Below are positions 7,293-15,158 of a DNA stretch of 64,000 nt, in pieces. This DNA is from Longimicrobiales bacterium. GTDB taxonomy: Bacteria > Gemmatimonadota > Gemmatimonadetes > Longimicrobiales > Gaopeijiaceae. Position 1 is the first letter of the stretch. Each line of letters begins with the position of its first letter. The notes under the pieces are model-generated. The model was not told the DNA's origin and did not search any database. It saw only the letters and a program-made list of their open reading frames with translations. Made by a program: the position numbers and the translations under genes. The stretch is taken from NCBI GenBank assembly GCA_029245345.1, contig JAQWPM010000012.1, positions 372,001 to 436,000 on the forward strand, read 5' to 3'.

Positions 7293-8468
7293 GTGCGCCG
7301 CTTCACCTTCGCGCTGGTTTTCGCAGTGTCATCGCTCACCCTGCTGGCCAATACAGTCGTCGGTCAGAGCAATGATCGCCCTCGCGCCCGCGACATCGGC
7401 CTCTCGGTAGGCGTCCTCACTCCCGGTACTCACAACGCGATCACCGATGTCGCCGGAGTCCGAGTCGGGCACACGACGGTTTCAGATGGCGTGCGCGTCC
7501 AGACCGGGGTTACGGCGATCCTCCCTCACGGGGGCAATCCATATCTCAGCCGAGTGCCCGCTGCGATCCATGTCGGGAACGGCTACGGGAAGCTCCTCGG
7601 GGTCACGCAGATCCGCGAACTCGGCGAAATCGAGACGCCCATCCTGCTCACGTGCACGCTCTGTGTCTGGAAAGCGGCCGACGCGATGGTCGAGTGGATG
7701 CTCGGGCTGGACGGCATGGAAGAAGTCCGGTCCCTGAACGCTGTTGTGGGTGAGACCAACGACGGGGGCCTCAACGACATTCGGAACCGTCCGATCGAAC
7801 CCGCTCACGTCATCCGTGCACTCGAATCCGCCACGGACGGCCCGGTCGAGGAAGGCGTCGTGGGGGCAGGAGCAGGAACGTCTGCCTTCGGTTGGAAAGG
7901 CGGAATCGGCACCAGCAGCCGAGTGCTTCCCCAAGGGATGGGCGGCTATACGGTCGGGGTTCTCGTTCAATCGAACTTCGGTGGCATCCTCCAGATGGGA
8001 GGAGCTCCGGTGGGTGTTGAGCTCGGCCAATACGCCTTCGCCAATCAGGTGGGGCACGATGAAGACTACGACCCGCAAGCCGACGTCCAGGAGTGGGGCT
8101 CAATCATGATGGTGGTCGCCACGGACGCCCCTCTCTCAGCCCGAAACCTCGAGCGACTCGCAGCCCGCGCAATCATGGGACTAGCTCGGACCGGTTCGTA
8201 TGCCAGCAACGGATCCGGGGACTACGTCATCGCATTCTCGACCGCCAACGGTGTCCGTCGCTCGACGACTCCCGGCGAGCATACATTCGACGACCTGGCG
8301 AACGGCAGCATGAGCGGGCTCTTCGAGGCTGCAGTGGAATCCACCGAAGAGGCCGTGTACAACTCGCTCCTCAAGGCCACGACCGTGACGAGCAACGGGC
8401 GAACGGTTGAAGCGCTCCCCCTCGACGAGACCATCGAAATCCTGCAGCGTTATCGAGCGATCCGATGA
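7293..8468 (+). CDS. Secreted P1-family peptidase (DmpA/BapA-like N-terminal nucleophile aminopeptidase)
   Basis: The 391-residue protein starts at a GTG with a strong ribosome-binding site and has a signal peptide (about 1-25, ending VVGQS). It matches the DmpA/beta-peptidyl-aminopeptidase fold: AITDVAGVRVGHTTV near 50-63, GAGTSAFGWKGGIGTSSRV near 193-211, and the self-cleavage segment EWGSIMMVVATDAPLS. There Ser270 would become the N-terminal nucleophile of the beta chain after Gly269-Ser270 autoproteolysis. Such enzymes release N-terminal residues, including D- or beta-amino acids. Its stop overlaps the start of the next gene (ATGA), so the two are probably co-translated. Confidence 0.88.
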   Translation: MRRFTFALVFAVSSLTLLANTVVGQSNDRPRARDIGLSVGVLTPGTHNAITDVAGVRVGHTTVSDGVRVQTGVTAILPHGGNPYLSRVPAAIHVGNGYGKLLGVTQIRELGEIETPILLTCTLCVWKAADAMVEWMLGLDGMEEVRSLNAVVGETNDGGLNDIRNRPIEPAHVIRALESATDGPVEEGVVGAGAGTSAFGWKGGIGTSSRVLPQGMGGYTVGVLVQSNFGGILQMGGAPVGVELGQYAFANQVGHDEDYDPQADVQEWGSIMMVVATDAPLSARNLERLAARAIMGLARTGSYASNGSGDYVIAFSTANGVRRSTTPGEHTFDDLANGSMSGLFEAAVESTEEAVYNSLLKATTVTSNGRTVEALPLDETIEILQRYRAIR

Positions 8469-9145
8469 CCCCGCCTACGGACGTCGATTGGCTCGTGCGG
8501 ACAGCGGTGTACCAGAGCTTTGCCGCGACGGGGAAGGCTCCCAGCCTAAGGGATTTGGCCGAGACCTTCGAGAGCACCCCTGAACGGATGGCCGAGTCCC
8601 TCGAACGACTACATCAAGCGCATCAGATCGCGCCACATCCGGACGGATCGGGCGTTTGGTGGGCGAATCCCTACTCGGACGTGGAGTCGGCGTACCCAGT
8701 AGAGACTCCCGTCATGACCACCTACGCCCCATGCGCTTGGGATGCGTTCGGAGTGCCTGCTATCGCCGGCACCGACGGGTGGATTCGCACGCGGTGCGCG
8801 GAGAGCGGTACGTCACTGGAGTTCGGGATTCGAGACGGCGAACTCGCGGGAGACGACGGCGTCATCCACATGGTCGTCCCCATCCGGGACGCGTGGGCCA
8901 ACATCGGCTTCACGTGAAGCAACATGCTTGCCTTCCGGTCGGAAGGGGACGTGACGGCATGGCTCGAACGCACCGGACATGGGTTCGGAGCGATGATCGA
9001 CTTCGCGACGATGTGGGCGATCGCCCAGCCGTGGTATTCAGGGCGCCTAGAAGCGGGGTGGCGAGGCCTCTCCGCCGAGGCAGGACAGGCGATCTTCGAT
9101 GAACTCGGGCTCACCGGAGCGTGGTGGCGCCTGATCGAGCCCTAG
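8465..9145 (+). CDS. Alkylmercury-lyase (MerB) family protein, probable selenoprotein with in-frame TGA (Sec151)
   Basis: One frame spans 8465-9145 and is interrupted only by TGA at 8915-8917; read as selenocysteine it gives 226 residues. Residues 1-70 are a winged-helix-like N-terminal domain. The lyase domain has TYAPCAWDAFG, in which C90 and D93 match catalytic Cys96 and Asp99 of plasmid MerB. C111 matches the structural Cys117, and position 151, in NIGFT-U-SNMLAFRSE, matches catalytic Cys159; the spacing is 61 versus 63 residues. The 75 residues after the TGA are typical MerB-family sequence (TAWLERTG, WAIAQPWY, GLTGAWWRL). A SECIS-like hairpin follows the TGA. MerB cleaves carbon-mercury bonds; the substrate here is unknown. 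The gene overlaps the P1 peptidase by ATGA. The alternative is a nonsense mutation truncating the protein at residue 150. Confidence 0.8.
8926..8950 (+). promoter_or_regulatory. Candidate bacterial SECIS hairpin downstream of TGA
   Basis: CCTTCC (8931-8936) pairs perfectly with GGAAGG (8941-8946) around the tetraloop GGTC (8937-8940). The stem may continue below a G-G mismatch by a U-G and a U-A pair. Counting the T of TGA as 1, the loop is at 23-26; in E. coli fdhF the SelB-binding GGUC loop is at about 22-25. Position, loop sequence and stem length fit a bacterial SECIS element. The bulged U seen in fdhF is absent. Confidence 0.72.
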
Positions 9146-10347
9146 CGGACGATCTCGGCTCCGATCAGTCGATCCACTTCCATACCCGTGAAGCCAGCCT
9201 CGGCCAGCACCTGGCGAGTATGCTCCCCTAGAAGGGGAGCGCCCCGGAGCGGTTCCGCGTCCTCCTTAGGGCCAGATCCCGACATCTTCACGGGGAAACC
9301 CAGCGAACGTACCAAACCGAGCGACGAGTGCTCGACGTCGATCACCATGCCCCGAGCCTTCGTCTGGGGATTTTCGATCATCTCCCCGACGGAAGCGATC
9401 GGGCCGGCTGGAACGCCCGCGTCCTGAAGCCGTTCCAGCCAACTCTCCGTGGAGCGCTTCAGAAAATGCGGCGCGAGCACACGGACCAATTCGTCCAAGT
9501 GTGCCATTCGGTCCGGATTAGTGCTGAAGCGCGGGTCTTCGTGGAGCTCGGCCGCATTCAGCGCCTGGGTGAGGCGAGTCCAAGTCGCCTCGTTGGAGGC
9601 ACCCACATTGATCCACCCGTCGGTCGTCGGGAAGGTCTGATACGGGGCGGCGAGGGGGTGAGCTGACCCCATGGGGCCGGGTGACACTCCACTTGCGAGC
9701 GCGATCGCGCTCTGCCAGAACGTCTGCGTGATTCCAGCTTCAAAAAGGGACGTGTCGACGTGCTGCCCTTTCCCTGTCCGCTCTCTCTCAAAAAGCGCGG
9801 ACACCACACCCAATGCCGCCAGAATACCCGCAGTAATGTCGGTCACCGGAGCACCCACTTTCACGGGTGCCCGTCCCGGCCCTTCCCCGGTCACGCTCAT
9901 GAGCCCCGAATAACCCTGAGCGATCAGGTCGAAGCCGCCTCGGTTCGACATCGGTCCCGTCGAGCCGAATCCCGTGATCTGGCAGTAGACCAGTTTTTCG
10001 TTGATGGCTGATAGGTCATCGTAGCCGAGCCCCATCTTCTCCATCGTTCCGGCACGGAAGTTCTCGATGATCACGTCGGCATCCTTTACCAACCGGCGTA
10101 CCACCGACCGCCCCTCTTCGGAACGCAGGTCCACAGCAACCCCACGCTTCCCGCGATTCAGCATCATAAACGCTGCAGATTCGCCCTTTACGTCTGGCGG
10201 AACGAATCCACGCGTGCCGTCCCCATTAGGGAGACGTTCCACCTTGATGACGTCGGCGCCCAGATCGCCGAGAAGGAGCCCACAGACAGGGCCTGCCATA
10301 ATGTGGCTGAGTTCGACGACTCGGACTCCGGACAGTGCCGACAGCAT
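9142..10347 (-). CDS. CaiB/BaiF family (class III) CoA-transferase
   Basis: Start ATG at 10345-10347 gives 401 residues. It is preceded by GGAGAG and lies just beyond the stop of the hydratase gene; a longer open frame upstream overlaps that gene and is rejected. The class III features are VVELSHIMAGPVCGLLLGDL at the N-terminus, the ADVIKVERLPNGD and RGKRGVAVDLRS segments, and the catalytic aspartate in GGFDLIAQGYSG, which forms the acyl-aspartyl anhydride. The enzyme moves CoA between carboxylic acids. It is the last gene of the aminotransferase-TRAP-hydratase operon, suggesting activation of an imported acid. Its substrate cannot be read from sequence. It converges with the MerB-like gene, overlapping by four bases. 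Confidence 0.88.
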   Translation of the reverse strand: MLSALSGVRVVELSHIMAGPVCGLLLGDLGADVIKVERLPNGDGTRGFVPPDVKGESAAFMMLNRGKRGVAVDLRSEEGRSVVRRLVKDADVIIENFRAGTMEKMGLGYDDLSAINEKLVYCQITGFGSTGPMSNRGGFDLIAQGYSGLMSVTGEGPGRAPVKVGAPVTDITAGILAALGVVSALFERERTGKGQHVDTSLFEAGITQTFWQSAIALASGVSPGPMGSAHPLAAPYQTFPTTDGWINVGASNEATWTRLTQALNAAELHEDPRFSTNPDRMAHLDELVRVLAPHFLKRSTESWLERLQDAGVPAGPIASVGEMIENPQTKARGMVIDVEHSSLGLVRSLGFPVKMSGSGPKEDAEPLRGAPLLGEHTRQVLAEAGFTGMEVDRLIGAEIVR

Positions 10348-10351
10348 GGAC

Positions 10352-11131
10352 CTACTCTCCGGTGAACGTCGGCTTACGCTTCTCCACGAACGCTTCGCGG
10401 CCTTCACGGTAGTCGTCCGTCTGGAAGGCGTCGTGTGCCTCGGCGCGCTCGGCATCGCTAAGCGGCGTCGGGTCCTCGAGCCGGCGGATGAACTTCTTGT
10501 GCCAACGATTCACAAGAGGAGCACCCGCGGCAATCTGCTCCGCCAACTCGCGACCGCGCGTCCGGACCTCACCATCCGGCACCACGCGATTTACAAGCCC
10601 GATACGCCGTGCTCCGGCCGCAGGCACGAGCTCCCCCGTGAGGAGAAGATCGAGCGCCGCCCCAGCTCCGATCAGCCGCACCAGCGGATCGAGTTCCGTG
10701 TGCGACATGGTCAAGCCGAGCCGATTGATGGGGGCCCCGAATCGGCTCGATGCCTCGCAGACTCGAACGTCACAGCAGCTGATGATCTCTAGGCCCCCGC
10801 CCACGCAGAGTCCCTGAACGATGGCGATCGTTGGGTGTGGACAGTTCCAAACGGCATGGAGCGCCGTGCCGATCGCGTCCGAGTATCCCTTCACGTCGTC
10901 CGGTGCAGTTCGTTGAGCTTCGAAGGCCGAGATATCGGATCCGGCGGAGAAGGCGCGCCCACCCACACCTCGGATCGTGACGCACCGAACATCCGCATTC
11001 TTCGTCAACGTCTCGAACTCTTCTGCTAGGGTCCGCCAACCAGCGATACCAAGCACGTTGTGCTTGTCTGGGCCGTCGAGACGGATCTCGGCAATGCCTG
11101 CGTCGATCTTTACGTGGACTCTTGTGCTCAT
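10352..11131 (-). CDS. Enoyl-CoA hydratase/isomerase (crotonase) family protein
   Basis: The 259-residue crotonase starts at the ATG 11129-11131 overlapping the DctM stop (ATGA). The oxyanion-hole segments are present: GGRAFSAGSDISAFEA near 65-80 and GLCVGGGLEIISCCDV near 105-122, the latter with the first catalytic-type Glu. The second usual catalytic Glu is replaced: the expected F-x-x-P-E motif reads FGAPINRLGL. Simple hydration by the classical two-glutamate mechanism is therefore doubtful, and a lyase, isomerase or thioesterase-like reaction is possible. It lies in the TRAP/CoA-transferase operon, so it probably acts on the CoA ester made by the next gene. Confidence 0.85.
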   Translation of the reverse strand: MSTRVHVKIDAGIAEIRLDGPDKHNVLGIAGWRTLAEEFETLTKNADVRCVTIRGVGGRAFSAGSDISAFEAQRTAPDDVKGYSDAIGTALHAVWNCPHPTIAIVQGLCVGGGLEIISCCDVRVCEASSRFGAPINRLGLTMSHTELDPLVRLIGAGAALDLLLTGELVPAAGARRIGLVNRVVPDGEVRTRGRELAEQIAAGAPLVNRWHKKFIRRLEDPTPLSDAERAEAHDAFQTDDYREGREAFVEKRKPTFTGE

Positions 11132-12414
11132 CGGTAGAACATCTCCACGAGGAACATCGGAATCGCCGGAACGTAGGTCACGAGCAGAAGCACAGCGAGC
11201 AGCACCGCCACGAAGTACACGTTGACCTTGCTCACCTGCCAGATGTCCGCCTTGGCGACGGAACACGCGGTCACGAGGACCGAGGCAACAGGCGGCGTCT
11301 GTTGCCCGATGCCAAGATTGAGGGTCACGACGAGTCCGAAGTGTACAGGATCGATGCCTGCAGCCGTTACCAAAGGCATCACGATGGGCACGACCAGAAT
11401 GATGGCTGCCGCAGAGTGAAGGAAGAGCCCAATGACCAGGAAGAAGCCGTTCAGCAGAAGTAGGATGGCCCAACGGTCCTGGGTCATACCCATGATGCCC
11501 TCCGCCACTCGCTGCGGTACCCGGACCTCCGTCAGGTAATCCCCGAGCAGCGCGGACGCAGCCACCAACAGCATCACGACGGCGGTCTGCGTGCCCCCCT
11601 CTAGAATCGCCTTCTTGAGATGCGGCAGGTCCAACTCTCGGTAGATCACACCGCCAATGAACATCGCCGCCACGACGGCCAGCCCTGCGCCTTCCGTGGC
11701 GGTAACCCATCCGCTGAAGATCCCGCCCAGGATGATGACCGGAAGTGTAAGGGCCCACGCCGCTTCCCTAGCCGTTTCCCAAACGCGCTCGAGCTTGAAC
11801 ATCTGCTCTTTAGGAAAATTACGTTTCCGGGCCAACATGTATGCGACCAACATCATCATGAGGCCGCCTAGGACCCCTGGGATGATGCCAGCAACAAAGA
11901 GTTCGACAATCGACGATCCAGACATCACCCCATAGAGGATCATCGGGATCGACGGAGGGATAATCACCGCGAGGGTCGCAGACGAGGATGTCACTGCAGC
12001 CGCGAACGACTTCGAATATCCCTTCCGTTTCATGGCTGGGATCAGGATCGATCCGAGCGCCGCCACGTCCGCGACCGCCGATCCGCTGATCTCTGCAAAG
12101 AAGAGCGAGGCGCTGATAGTGACCATCGCCAGACCGCCCCGGATGAAACCGACCAACGCAGAGGCAAAGTTGATCAATCGCGTACTGATACCCGACGCGT
12201 TCATGATCGCGCCGGCCAAGATGAAGAGCGGAATCGCGATGAGCGGGAAGGACGTGGACCCGCTGTACATCACGAGACCCACGTTGGGTAGCGAACCTAT
12301 CCCACCGGGCCCCGTGATCATGGCCAGCACCGCCACGGCTCCGAGAGAGATCGCGATCGGGATCCCGAGAACCACCAACAACAGCAACACGAGGCCAATT
12401 CCGAGCAGACTCAT
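11128..12414 (-). CDS. dctM: TRAP transporter large permease, DctM
   Basis: The 428-residue protein has about 12 hydrophobic helices with TRAP-M signatures: PLFILAGAIMNASGISTRL, FAEISGSAVADVAALGSILIP, SSATLAVIIPPSIPMILYG and NLGIGQQTPPVASVL near the C-terminus. It is the sodium-coupled membrane subunit that works with DctQ and the periplasmic DctP. Its start overlaps the end of dctQ (ATGA) and its stop overlaps the start of the crotonase gene (ATGA), so stoichiometric translation is likely. Confidence 0.95.
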   Translation of the reverse strand: MSLLGIGLVLLLLVVLGIPIAISLGAVAVLAMITGPGGIGSLPNVGLVMYSGSTSFPLIAIPLFILAGAIMNASGISTRLINFASALVGFIRGGLAMVTISASLFFAEISGSAVADVAALGSILIPAMKRKGYSKSFAAAVTSSSATLAVIIPPSIPMILYGVMSGSSIVELFVAGIIPGVLGGLMMMLVAYMLARKRNFPKEQMFKLERVWETAREAAWALTLPVIILGGIFSGWVTATEGAGLAVVAAMFIGGVIYRELDLPHLKKAILEGGTQTAVVMLLVAASALLGDYLTEVRVPQRVAEGIMGMTQDRWAILLLLNGFFLVIGLFLHSAAAIILVVPIVMPLVTAAGIDPVHFGLVVTLNLGIGQQTPPVASVLVTACSVAKADIWQVSKVNVYFVAVLLAVLLLVTYVPAIPMFLVEMFYR

Positions 12415-12959
12415 GCGTCGGCTCCAGAGCTCGCCGGCCCATCAGCTTCGGCCGTCGCCACATACGCGAACTCCTCGTCAGGCTCAGCGACTGGCTCCCT
12501 CAGCGCATCTGGCAGCGACAACAATTGCGAGACGATGAAGAGCACCGCACCAATGGGAATCACCGACTGAGCGACCGCGGTCGGCACCCAGGGAAGAGAC
12601 ACGAGCGTAGTCCCTCCCAGAACGGAGAAGACACGTACGCCCGCCCAGGCTAGCACGGAGAAGAAGGCGATCACGACGACTTCGCCGAACAGCACGACGC
12701 CCTTCCTGAGATTGCCGTGCATCTTGTCGACGAGCGTCGGCATGCCGATGTGCGATCGACTCAGGGCAGCGAGAGCGGCTCCGTAATAGGTAAGCCAGGC
12801 GAGCATGATGGAGGCAACCTCGTCGTACCAGACGAGTGACGCCCCCGCCTTCCTGAACCCGACGCCCACCACAACGATGACGGCAAGAGCCACCATCAGG
12901 ACCAGAACGATCGTCTCCAGGAAGACCCGGAGTCGACTTCGGAAGACGGCTGGTTTCAC
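12411..12959 (-). CDS. dctQ: TRAP transporter small permease, DctQ
   Basis: The 182-residue protein has four predicted helices (about 12-35, 45-66, 85-110 and 125-148) and the DctQ-like segment WYDEVASIMLAWLTYYGAA. A polar, alanine/glutamate-rich tail of about 30 residues follows. It starts at GTG 12957-12959, 22 bases after the dctP stop, without a clear Shine-Dalgarno, and overlaps dctM by four bases. Confidence 0.9.
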   Translation of the reverse strand: MKPAVFRSRLRVFLETIVLVLMVALAVIVVVGVGFRKAGASLVWYDEVASIMLAWLTYYGAALAALSRSHIGMPTLVDKMHGNLRKGVVLFGEVVVIAFFSVLAWAGVRVFSVLGGTTLVSLPWVPTAVAQSVIPIGAVLFIVSQLLSLPDALREPVAEPDEEFAYVATAEADGPASSGADA

Positions 12960-12981
12960 GAGTGGCTGGAGCGAGTGAGGG

Positions 12982-13980
12982 TCAATTCGATCCTGAGTCG
13001 AGGGCTCGCCGGACTAAGTCTCCGCCACCCTCCACGGTCGCGTCAAACTCCTCGTAGAGCCCCGTACTCGCCTGCACGAAGGCCGCACGCTCCGGCGAAT
13101 TGACCTCCACGCCGGCATCACGGACGGACGTCAGCAACTCCGTATCCAACCGGGCCGCCGTCTCATGCACGAACGCCTGCGTGGACCGGACCTCTTCTTC
13201 CAAGATTTGGCGAACATCGTCGGACAACCGATCCCATTGACTCGGAGACACCACCACGTAGGCAGGAGTGTACACATGGCCCGTCATGGACAAGTAGTCC
13301 TGCACTTCGTACAGCTTGGAGCCCCATATCTGGGCGAGCGGGTTCTCTTGTCCGTCGATCACACCAGTCTGCAACCCAATGAAGACCTCGGACAAAGCCA
13401 TCGGCGTCGGGTTGGCTCCATAAGCTTGGAAGAGCTTGACCCGCCACACTCCGCGGGGAGTGCGAAGCTTGATGCCCGCCAAGTCGGCCGGAGCAGTGAT
13501 GGGCCGCTCATTGTTCGTCACATGGCGAAATCCGTTCTCCCAGACACCGAGCATTCGATACCCCGCGGCCTCCGCAAGCGGTGCGAGATCAGGCCATACG
13601 ACCGCCTCCTCGATGGCCCTCATGTGCTCCCGATCCACGACGAGATAGGGCATCTCGAACAGGCCAAACGCATCGATCTGGGACGACATCACCGTGGACG
13701 GGAGGGCGAAGTCGACGGTGCCCAGTTTGATCTTCTGTAGCAGAAGTTCGTCACCACCCAGCTGACTGGAACCGAAAACAACGACCTCATAGCCGTCGAG
13801 ACGTTCGTTCGCTCGGCGCGCGAACTCTTCCGCCGAGAGAGCGAAGAGCGATCCCGGCTCCCCGACATGTCCGAACTTGAGCTCGATCGGGCCACCGTCC
13901 CCTTCAGCGACGCATCCTATGGAACCGAGCGAAATCGCCACAAACGCAGCGGTCGTCGCCACAGTGCGGAACCGAGACAT
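12982..13980 (-). CDS. dctP: TRAP transporter periplasmic substrate-binding lipoprotein, DctP
   Basis: The ATG at 13978-13980 is preferred over the adjacent GTG at 13983, because GGAGG lies about seven bases upstream; this gives 332 residues. The lipobox is SLGSIGC (a lipid-anchored binding protein). DctP features include LKFGHVGEPGSLFALSAEEF, FGSSQLGGDELLLQKIKLGT and the carboxylate-binding arginine region LAGIKLRTPRG, followed by FIGLQTGVIDGQENP. The conserved Arg suggests an organic-acid ligand. The start overlaps the aminotransferase stop (TGATG), tying transport to amino-group chemistry. Confidence 0.92.
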   Translation of the reverse strand: MSRFRTVATTAAFVAISLGSIGCVAEGDGGPIELKFGHVGEPGSLFALSAEEFARRANERLDGYEVVVFGSSQLGGDELLLQKIKLGTVDFALPSTVMSSQIDAFGLFEMPYLVVDREHMRAIEEAVVWPDLAPLAEAAGYRMLGVWENGFRHVTNNERPITAPADLAGIKLRTPRGVWRVKLFQAYGANPTPMALSEVFIGLQTGVIDGQENPLAQIWGSKLYEVQDYLSMTGHVYTPAYVVVSPSQWDRLSDDVRQILEEEVRSTQAFVHETAARLDTELLTSVRDAGVEVNSPERAAFVQASTGLYEEFDATVEGGGDLVRRALDSGSN

Positions 13981-15158
13981 CACGTCCCTCCACCTTCAGT
14001 AGTCAGGAAATCCATGGCAGCGCGCACACCCCCCGGCTGATGCGGGATCCCGGCCAGAGCCAGTCCCATCTCTATGCCAGCAAGTGCACCCATAAGCGTC
14101 AGTGTGTTGAAGTCACCCAGGTGCCCGATGCGAAAGAGCTTGCCTTTGTAGGGCCCGAGCCCCGTCCCCAGCGACATGTCATATCGGTTGAGAATCAGCG
14201 TTCTCAGTTCGTCGGCGTCGAAGCCGTCCGGGATCACTGTTGCCGTCACAGCATTACTCGCCTCAAGCGGGTTCCACGCGAAGGTGTCGAGGCCCCACGC
14301 AGCGACCGCCGTACGCGCCACCCGTGCGTGACGTGCGTGTCGCTGAAACACGTTGGCGAGTCCTTCCTCACGCAGCATAACGAGCGCCTCTTCAAGTCCG
14401 TAAAGGAGGTTCGTCGCGGGCGTGTACGGGAAAGTCCCCTGCTCATTCGCAGCGAGCTGGTCGTCCCAATCCCAGTACGAACGAGGGAGCGTCGCGGCCT
14501 TTCGTGCCTCGAGCGCCCGCGGCCCGATCGCGAGAAATGCCAGTCCCGGAGGAAGCATGAGCCCCTTCTGCGATCCGGATACCGTCACATCAATGCTCCA
14601 AGCGTCGTGTTGGAGGTCCGTGGCAGCCAGAGACGAAACCGCATCGACAAAAAGCATGGCGGGATGTCCCGACTCCTGCATCGCCGTACCAATCACTTCG
14701 ACATCGCTGGTCACACCCGTCGACGTCTCGTTGTGAACGACAAACACCGCTTTGATGGCGTTGATGTGATCGGCGCGCAGAGCGTCGATCACTGCGTCGG
14801 CCGCGAGGCCACGACGCGGTTCCCAGGGCTCACGTTGGACGATGAGCCCGAAGCGGTCGGCCACGGCCGCCCATTTCTCCGCGAAGAAGCCCTGATCGAA
14901 GACAACGACCCGGTCTCCAGGCGAAAGCGTGTTCGTGATCGCCGCTTCCCAGGCTCCGCTCGCGGACGACGGGTGCACGAGAACGTGGTGTTTGGTCCGA
15001 AAGAGCCACTTCAACTCCGCTAAGAGCCGACCTGTGAGTTCCTTGAATTCCGGGCCTCGGTGGTCGATGGTCGGGCGGGACATCGCACGCAACACCCGGT
15101 CCGGCACGTTGGTCGGGCCGGGGAGCTGCAGAAAGTGTCGTCCGCTGCGGTAGGTCAC
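13980..15158 (-). CDS. Class V aminotransferase (serine-glyoxylate / alanine-glyoxylate type)
   Basis: Start GTG at 15156-15158 gives 392 residues beginning just before LQLPGPTNVPDRVLRAM, the usual N-terminus of the family. A longer open frame upstream crosses the divergent dehydrogenase start and is rejected. D172 contacts the PLP pyridine nitrogen, and K198 in SGSQKGLMLPPG is the Schiff-base lysine. The C-terminal FRIGHLGDFNTLTLMG segment is typical of serine-glyoxylate and alanine-glyoxylate aminotransferases. It heads the TRAP/CoA-transferase operon and diverges from a GlcD/GlcF-type dehydrogenase. One plausible division of labour is oxidation of a 2-hydroxyacid to a 2-oxoacid, then its transamination; the true substrates are unknown. 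Confidence 0.88.
   Translation of the reverse strand: MTYRSGRHFLQLPGPTNVPDRVLRAMSRPTIDHRGPEFKELTGRLLAELKWLFRTKHHVLVHPSSASGAWEAAITNTLSPGDRVVVFDQGFFAEKWAAVADRFGLIVQREPWEPRRGLAADAVIDALRADHINAIKAVFVVHNETSTGVTSDVEVIGTAMQESGHPAMLFVDAVSSLAATDLQHDAWSIDVTVSGSQKGLMLPPGLAFLAIGPRALEARKAATLPRSYWDWDDQLAANEQGTFPYTPATNLLYGLEEALVMLREEGLANVFQRHARHARVARTAVAAWGLDTFAWNPLEASNAVTATVIPDGFDADELRTLILNRYDMSLGTGLGPYKGKLFRIGHLGDFNTLTLMGALAGIEMGLALAGIPHQPGGVRAAMDFLTTEGGGT

Follow-up and report, generated by a model that had tools for sequence, protein, structure and literature searches.

An inventory of May 2026, covering 119 prokaryotic selenoprotein families, contains a single MerB-like entry, SaoL (NF040728, with a CU motif), a predicted selenoprotein considered to be the MerB-like organometallic lyase of the SAO system and encoded in an operon with multiple selenoproteins (PMC13188914). 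By the rule of that inventory, a different position or motif of selenocysteine (Sec) defines a distinct subfamily (PMC13188914). Earlier work, including the 2008 GOS and 2016 ISME J papers, is given by two reviews as the source of a "MerB-like" selenoprotein, but neither of these two papers names it in its main text. A further relevant precedent is the genetic code of the Geodermatophilaceae, in which the use of UAG for Sec is established and the UAG selenoproteins named are FDH, a UGSC-motif protein and AhpC (PMC5330540).

The gene described here, a member of a family that we denote Sec-MerB, lies in a 64-kb window (the whole stretch of DNA analyzed) on contig C12 (Table 1); the Gemmatimonadota genome to which this contig belongs spans 3.79 Mb and is 98% complete. 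The original prediction, made from the nucleotide sequence, was that of a MerB-family lyase with TGA in place of a catalytic cysteine, and on re-reading of 8465-9145 its details proved exact: the frame 8465-9142, closed by TAG at 9143-9145, has TGA 8915-8917 (codon 151 of 226) as its sole internal stop, Cys90 of the Cys90-Ala-Trp-Asp93 motif lies 61 codons upstream of it, and 75 residues follow it. Sequence of the MerB family does indeed continue on both sides, the Pfam MerB domain (PF03243) matching residues 71-191, across the TGA, with an E-value of 1.1e-20 (74.3 bits against a gathering cut-off of 27). In comparison with six relatives, and with the SECIS codons excluded, differences at third codon positions exceed those at first and second positions on both sides of the TGA, and this coding-type pattern beyond the TGA implies that translation continues past it. 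A search of PHROGs with the protein returned no match.

Table 1. Features of the Sec-MerB locus, in window coordinates
Feature	Coordinates	Strand	Basis and remarks
Peptidase_S58 (P1/DmpA-type) gene	7293..8468	+	Pfam, 1.4e-112; 4-base overlap (ATGA) with the Sec-MerB start
Sec-MerB coding sequence (predicted)	8465..9145	+	ATG start, single in-frame UGA read as Sec, TAG stop; 226-residue product
Cys90-Ala-Trp-Asp93	8732..8743	+	Counterpart of MerB Cys96-x-x-Asp99; alignment to MerB structures
UGA, predicted Sec codon, residue 151	8915..8917	+	MerB Cys159 position; comparative codon data
Candidate bacterial SECIS stem-loop, 6 bp, apical loop GGUC at 8937-8940	8931..8946	+	Fold, conservation, codon bias

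The fold and the active site both correspond to those of MerB, as judged by alignment and by an AlphaFold2 model in which Cys stands for Sec (mean pLDDT 96.5). The closest solved structure is MerB2 (PDB 5c17; Z 19.2, rmsd 3.1 over 190 residues), followed by MerB structures at Z of about 15. In profile alignment to the solved structures, Cys90 and Asp93 fall on Cys96 and Asp99 of MerB, and Sec151 falls, where the TGA had been predicted to lie, in the Cys159 column: it coincides with Cys159 in 3f2g, the structure of MerB C160S, and with the corresponding Cys in MerB2. Against wild-type MerB, which has Cys159-Cys160, the automatic alignment is off by one, and the distance to the next conserved Phe (+6) fits Cys159.

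Homologues of this protein are both numerous and widespread. Among 59 related genomes, 10 others, all of the same order as the source, encode a full-length homologue (32-68% identity) with exactly one in-frame TGA, in the same place, and one further homologue (29% identity) encodes Cys there. Such recurrence of the TGA goes far beyond chance. A contig scan recovered 80 loci, mostly from metagenome-assembled genomes (MAGs), in records of Gemmatimonadota, Chloroflexota, Thermomicrobiota, Acidobacteriota, Actinomycetota, Fidelibacterota (Marinimicrobia), Vulcanimicrobiota (Eremiobacterota), Myxococcota and Pseudomonadota; on these records, the family is represented in at least eight bacterial phyla. 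Among the 84 distinct homologous sequences with a readable codon in the profile alignment, the Sec position is TGA in 83 and TGC in one, the search being biased, if anything, against TGA, given that the scan pattern was back-translated as Cys at this position. In a quick-search tree, the Cys clade, itself supported by 99% SH-aLRT, is nested among the TGA forms, which suggests that Sec is older than Cys within the sampled family, with the qualification that the outgroup branch is long.

The Sec and Cys forms differ at a second active-site position. Cys90 and Asp93 are both present in all 83 TGA forms, and likewise in forms with TAG at the Sec position (see below), and every Cys form with a readable motif, from Gemmatimonadota and from Sphingomonas and Paraburkholderia plasmids, has Cys at position 93; the members of the Gemmatimonadota Cys clade have TGC in the Sec column. 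The Cys-form loci with Cys for Asp93, and thus with CxxC plus a third Cys, are L134, L165-L172, L187 and L188. Classical MerB-type sequences outside the family (L022, L023) keep both Cys and Asp, so that the coupling of Sec to Asp93 is a rule internal to the Sec-MerB family. Within these bounds, the aligned sequences indicate that Sec travels with the proton-donor Asp of MerB and that the Cys forms carry CxxC plus Cys; we infer that lyase chemistry persists in the Sec forms and that the Cys forms may have turned toward metal binding. Through the split between Sec with Asp and Cys with Cys, the contribution of selenium to this chemistry becomes directly testable by mutation.

The scenario that we propose is that SelB and tRNA-Sec decode UGA 8915-8917 under the direction of the stem-loop at 8931-8946, yielding a MerB-fold enzyme, mostly stand-alone, in which Cys90, Asp93 and Sec151 would play the parts of MerB Cys96, Asp99 and Cys159. 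The Sec selenolate and the Cys90 thiolate would grip the metal of an organometal (an organomercurial, another soft organometal or a metalloid compound), the carbon leaving group would take up a proton from Asp93, and exchange to small thiols would release the metal. We put the probability of this joint reading, Sec decoding plus an organometal(loid) lyase that employs Sec151, Cys90 and Asp93, at roughly 0.6; the lyase assignment by itself, whose chemistry and substrate we infer, is one toward which we lean without great confidence. Mercury is a plausible substrate of the predicted enzyme. However, Hg-Se bonds are strong, Sec-bound Hg(II) would be hard to release, and the best MerA match in the source genome scores 334 bits, under the cut-off of 454, which together leave room for substrates other than mercury. 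The most far-reaching version of the proposal, namely, a widespread, unlisted family of selenoenzymes that, in environmental bacteria, would cleave an organometal or organometalloid other than one of mercury, with Sec151 and Asp93 coupled and with both UGA and its tRNA rewritten for UAG in one lineage, is tentative and, on balance, rather doubtful.

The main alternative accepts the selenoprotein but rejects the lyase: on this view, the MerB fold would serve as a metal(loid)-binding chaperone, a sequestration protein or a redox protein, with Sec as a ligand or redox residue. This would fit the lack of a mer operon and of any conserved partner as well as the sub-threshold MerA, and it would agree with a weak structural match of the model to the copper chaperone NosL (Z 4.4) and with the Cys forms, which, having exchanged Asp93 for Cys, may only bind metal. 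Against it stands the retention of the full MerB set, Cys90, Asp93 and Sec151, in 83 of 83 Sec forms; plain metal binding would not require Asp93, and a redox motif of the CxxU or UxxC type is absent at Sec. We regard the non-lyase function as a serious contender that nevertheless falls well short of even odds.

The genomic context of the predicted lyase is largely local. In about ten close Gemmatimonadota loci, Peptidase_S58 and UbiA genes precede Sec-MerB, and a CoA transferase gene lies downstream on the other strand (here and below, the neighbors in the locus comparison were named from reading the sequences). The original prediction singled out the pairing with a P1 peptidase as potentially new; the S58 gene is adjacent in the window and in these close loci but absent elsewhere, and being confined to close Gemmatimonadota, the adjacency probably reflects local synteny rather than a functional partnership. 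On the minus strand of the window, next to Sec-MerB, positions 9142-13983 hold a family III CoA-transferase gene, an enoyl-CoA hydratase-like frame and the genes for a complete TRAP transporter (DctM, DctQ, DctP), an order partly retained in close relatives. In a Chloroflexota subset (e.g., L063, L070, L077 and L079), Sec-MerB is located between tsf (EF-Ts) and pyrH, within the rpsB-tsf-pyrH cluster. No neighbor is conserved across phyla among the loci compared, and none of the neighbors is a mer gene; the Sec-MerB gene is, then, mostly a stand-alone one. In a Mycobacterium gallinarum plasmid (L189, 1566-2567), a MerB-like domain, extended at its N-terminus by a thioredoxin-like segment, adjoins a MerR regulator and arsM, a possible link of MerB-like proteins to arsenic.

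The mention, in the original prediction, of Sec-containing MerB-like proteins in other lineages finds its counterpart in SaoL (NF040728; PMC13188914), albeit as a different family. The two are alike in being MerB-related and in containing Sec, and the SaoL model does give weak matches to Sec-MerB (18.1 bits for the window protein and 28-49 bits for its relatives), so Sec-MerB might be taken for the orthologue of the SaoL of the SAO system. However, the curated cut-off is 140 bits, the matches end before the Sec position, the motif at Sec is Thr-Sec (TU) as opposed to the published CU, and the neighbors differ, with the SAO operon there and UbiA, S58 peptidase, CoA transferase and TRAP genes here. 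Orthology is therefore very unlikely: Sec-MerB is set apart by model score and by description, and the different motif makes it a family distinct from SaoL under the published rule. Across 400 genomes from the same phylum as a Chloroflexota locus, no SaoL above the cut-off was detected. No model in NCBIfam 20.0 covers the Sec-MerB family, no cut-off there being reached. By the table of the 2026 inventory and by NCBIfam 20.0, the family is apparently unlisted, with some residual doubt.

The decoding of UGA 8915-8917 as Sec we consider practically assured, and each computational check put forward with the original prediction turned out in its favor. The predicted perfect 6-bp hairpin with a GGTC loop at +23 to +26 (the T of TGA being +1) was borne out exactly, CCUUCC (+17 to +22) pairing with GGAAGG (+27 to +32), and folding of 46 nt gave a minimum free energy of -16.7 kcal/mol (z -2.2 against shuffles). 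The single-sequence z-scores are modest, the hairpin in the window giving -2.2 and two other members values near -0.9, with no excess stability in L061, which has a GTGA loop (the stretches folded, from L059, L054 and L061, do not all start exactly at the TGA), and the case for the SECIS accordingly rests on conservation, not on energy. The four inner stem pairs are retained in 84-87 of 87 sequences, and the apical loop is GGTC in 78 of the 87 and GTGA in six. In covariation counts over six close relatives, the stem barely varies, and codon bias over the 87 sequences was used instead: the codon for Arg158 is CGG in 80 of 87, compared with 29% for Arg elsewhere in the same genes, and Ser159 is TCG in all 78 serines, compared with 36% elsewhere, figures given without a p-value as the sequences are kin. 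Strong synonymous constraint, in these alignments, sits exactly at the SECIS. Its conservation is weakest in six Chloroflexota members (L061, L063, L070, L073, L089 and L098), which have an atypical SECIS with the GTGA loop and FREE replacing FRSE. At the hairpin position, the Gemmatimonadota Cys forms have TTCGAGACGCCC, TTCGACTCTCCC and similar sequences, without the stem. A Rfam gathering scan of the 64-kb window found no match, which is no evidence against the SECIS, bacterial SECIS elements lacking the length and uniformity on which such a scan depends.

An ATG at 8924, three codons past the TGA, raises the prospect of two proteins, with termination at the TGA and re-initiation downstream. 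In the homologues, however, ATG occupies that codon in only 23 of 83, and 48 of 83 have no start codon within six codons; furthermore, the MerB domain spans the TGA, and the Cys homologues are single proteins. Restart at ATG 8924 was rejected as a general explanation on these counts of ATG, and at this locus, too, we deem it highly improbable.

The genome possesses the complete machinery for Sec insertion that the original prediction called for: tRNA-Sec (selC) on contig C2 (65 bits, anticodon TCA, i.e., UCA), SelB on C19 (335 bits, with its neighbors in frame), SelA on C21 (549 bits) and SelD on C24 (G000:C24:30597-31520, locus L033; 376 bits). The selD gene has an in-frame TGA of its own and, given that Sec-type SelD carries one, SelD is probably a second selenoprotein of this genome. 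SelA is present in 290 of 395 Gemmatimonadota genomes; among these 395, selA accompanies 49 of 51 TGA forms and three of nine Cys forms (Fisher p 4e-5, for two genome lists matched by hand, with relatedness ignored and with the nine Cys-form genomes constituting one clade, hence not nine independent cases).

A further observation comes from Geodermatophilus saharensis, G. pulveris, Modestobacter excelsi and Blastococcus capsensis, in which the Sec position is TAG. These four loci (L099, L103, L110 and L113, about 10436-10447) are absent from the 84-sequence codon table on account of that codon, and in the tree, they are placed among actinobacterial TGA forms. The tRNA-Sec of the TAG-form genomes has the anticodon CTA (CUA) and scores 64-67 bits in the Rfam model (ARAGORN mislabels it tRNA-Pyl in all four), whereas all tested TGA-form genomes with a tRNA-Sec above the cut-off have TCA; in two TGA-form MAGs (G407, G411), no tRNA-Sec reaches the cut-off. 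We know of no explanation for a parallel switch of codon and anticodon except Sec at that codon, and the pairing of UGA with UCA and of UAG with CUA is an unusually clean sequence-level proof of recoding. Beyond the stop codon that interrupts the frame, nothing speaks for a nonsense mutation, sequencing error or pseudogene, a reading whose likelihood is vanishingly small and which is refuted by the comparative codon data: over at least eight phyla, the same codon recurs in all but one of 84 distinct sequences, TAG replaces it together with the tRNA anticodon, coding constraint extends past it, selABCD are present, and the close homologues carry Sec codons with a conserved hairpin or are Cys variants without one.

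Annotated selenoproteins are for the most part regarded as redox enzymes. Sec-MerB, in contrast, would place Sec at the metal-binding cysteine of a fold that cleaves carbon-metal bonds. Gene callers that read TGA as a stop yield a 150-residue fragment, so surveys of mercury and organometal degradation would miss this family.

Compared with the known systems, Sec-MerB shares with MerB (PF03243; PDB 3f0o, 3f2f, 3f2g) the fold, the equivalents of Cys96, Asp99 and Cys159, and the N-terminal helical domain, but has Sec for Cys159, about 20% identity, an extra C-terminal W..FW segment and no mer operon, and scores far under the NCBIfam MerB equivalog cut-offs (NF033555, 21.9 bits against 200; NF009710, 24.3 bits against 193). 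MerB2 (5c17) differs in having Ser at the Asp93 position and a second catalytic Cys where Sec aligns. The Cys homologues annotated as alkylmercury or organomercurial lyases (e.g., WP_069207870.1, from a Sphingomonas panacis plasmid) belong to the same full-length family, C-terminal segment included, but have Cys for Sec and Cys for Asp93, and a SECIS was not seen in the Gemmatimonadota Cys forms. Finally, the TAG forms of Sec-MerB conform to the UAG-Sec code of the Geodermatophilaceae, with TAG as the Sec codon in the same genomes with the CUA tRNA-Sec, but the family is absent from the UAG selenoproteins named in that work (PMC5330540); on codon and anticodon, Sec-MerB is an additional predicted UAG selenoprotein beyond FDH, UGSC and AhpC.
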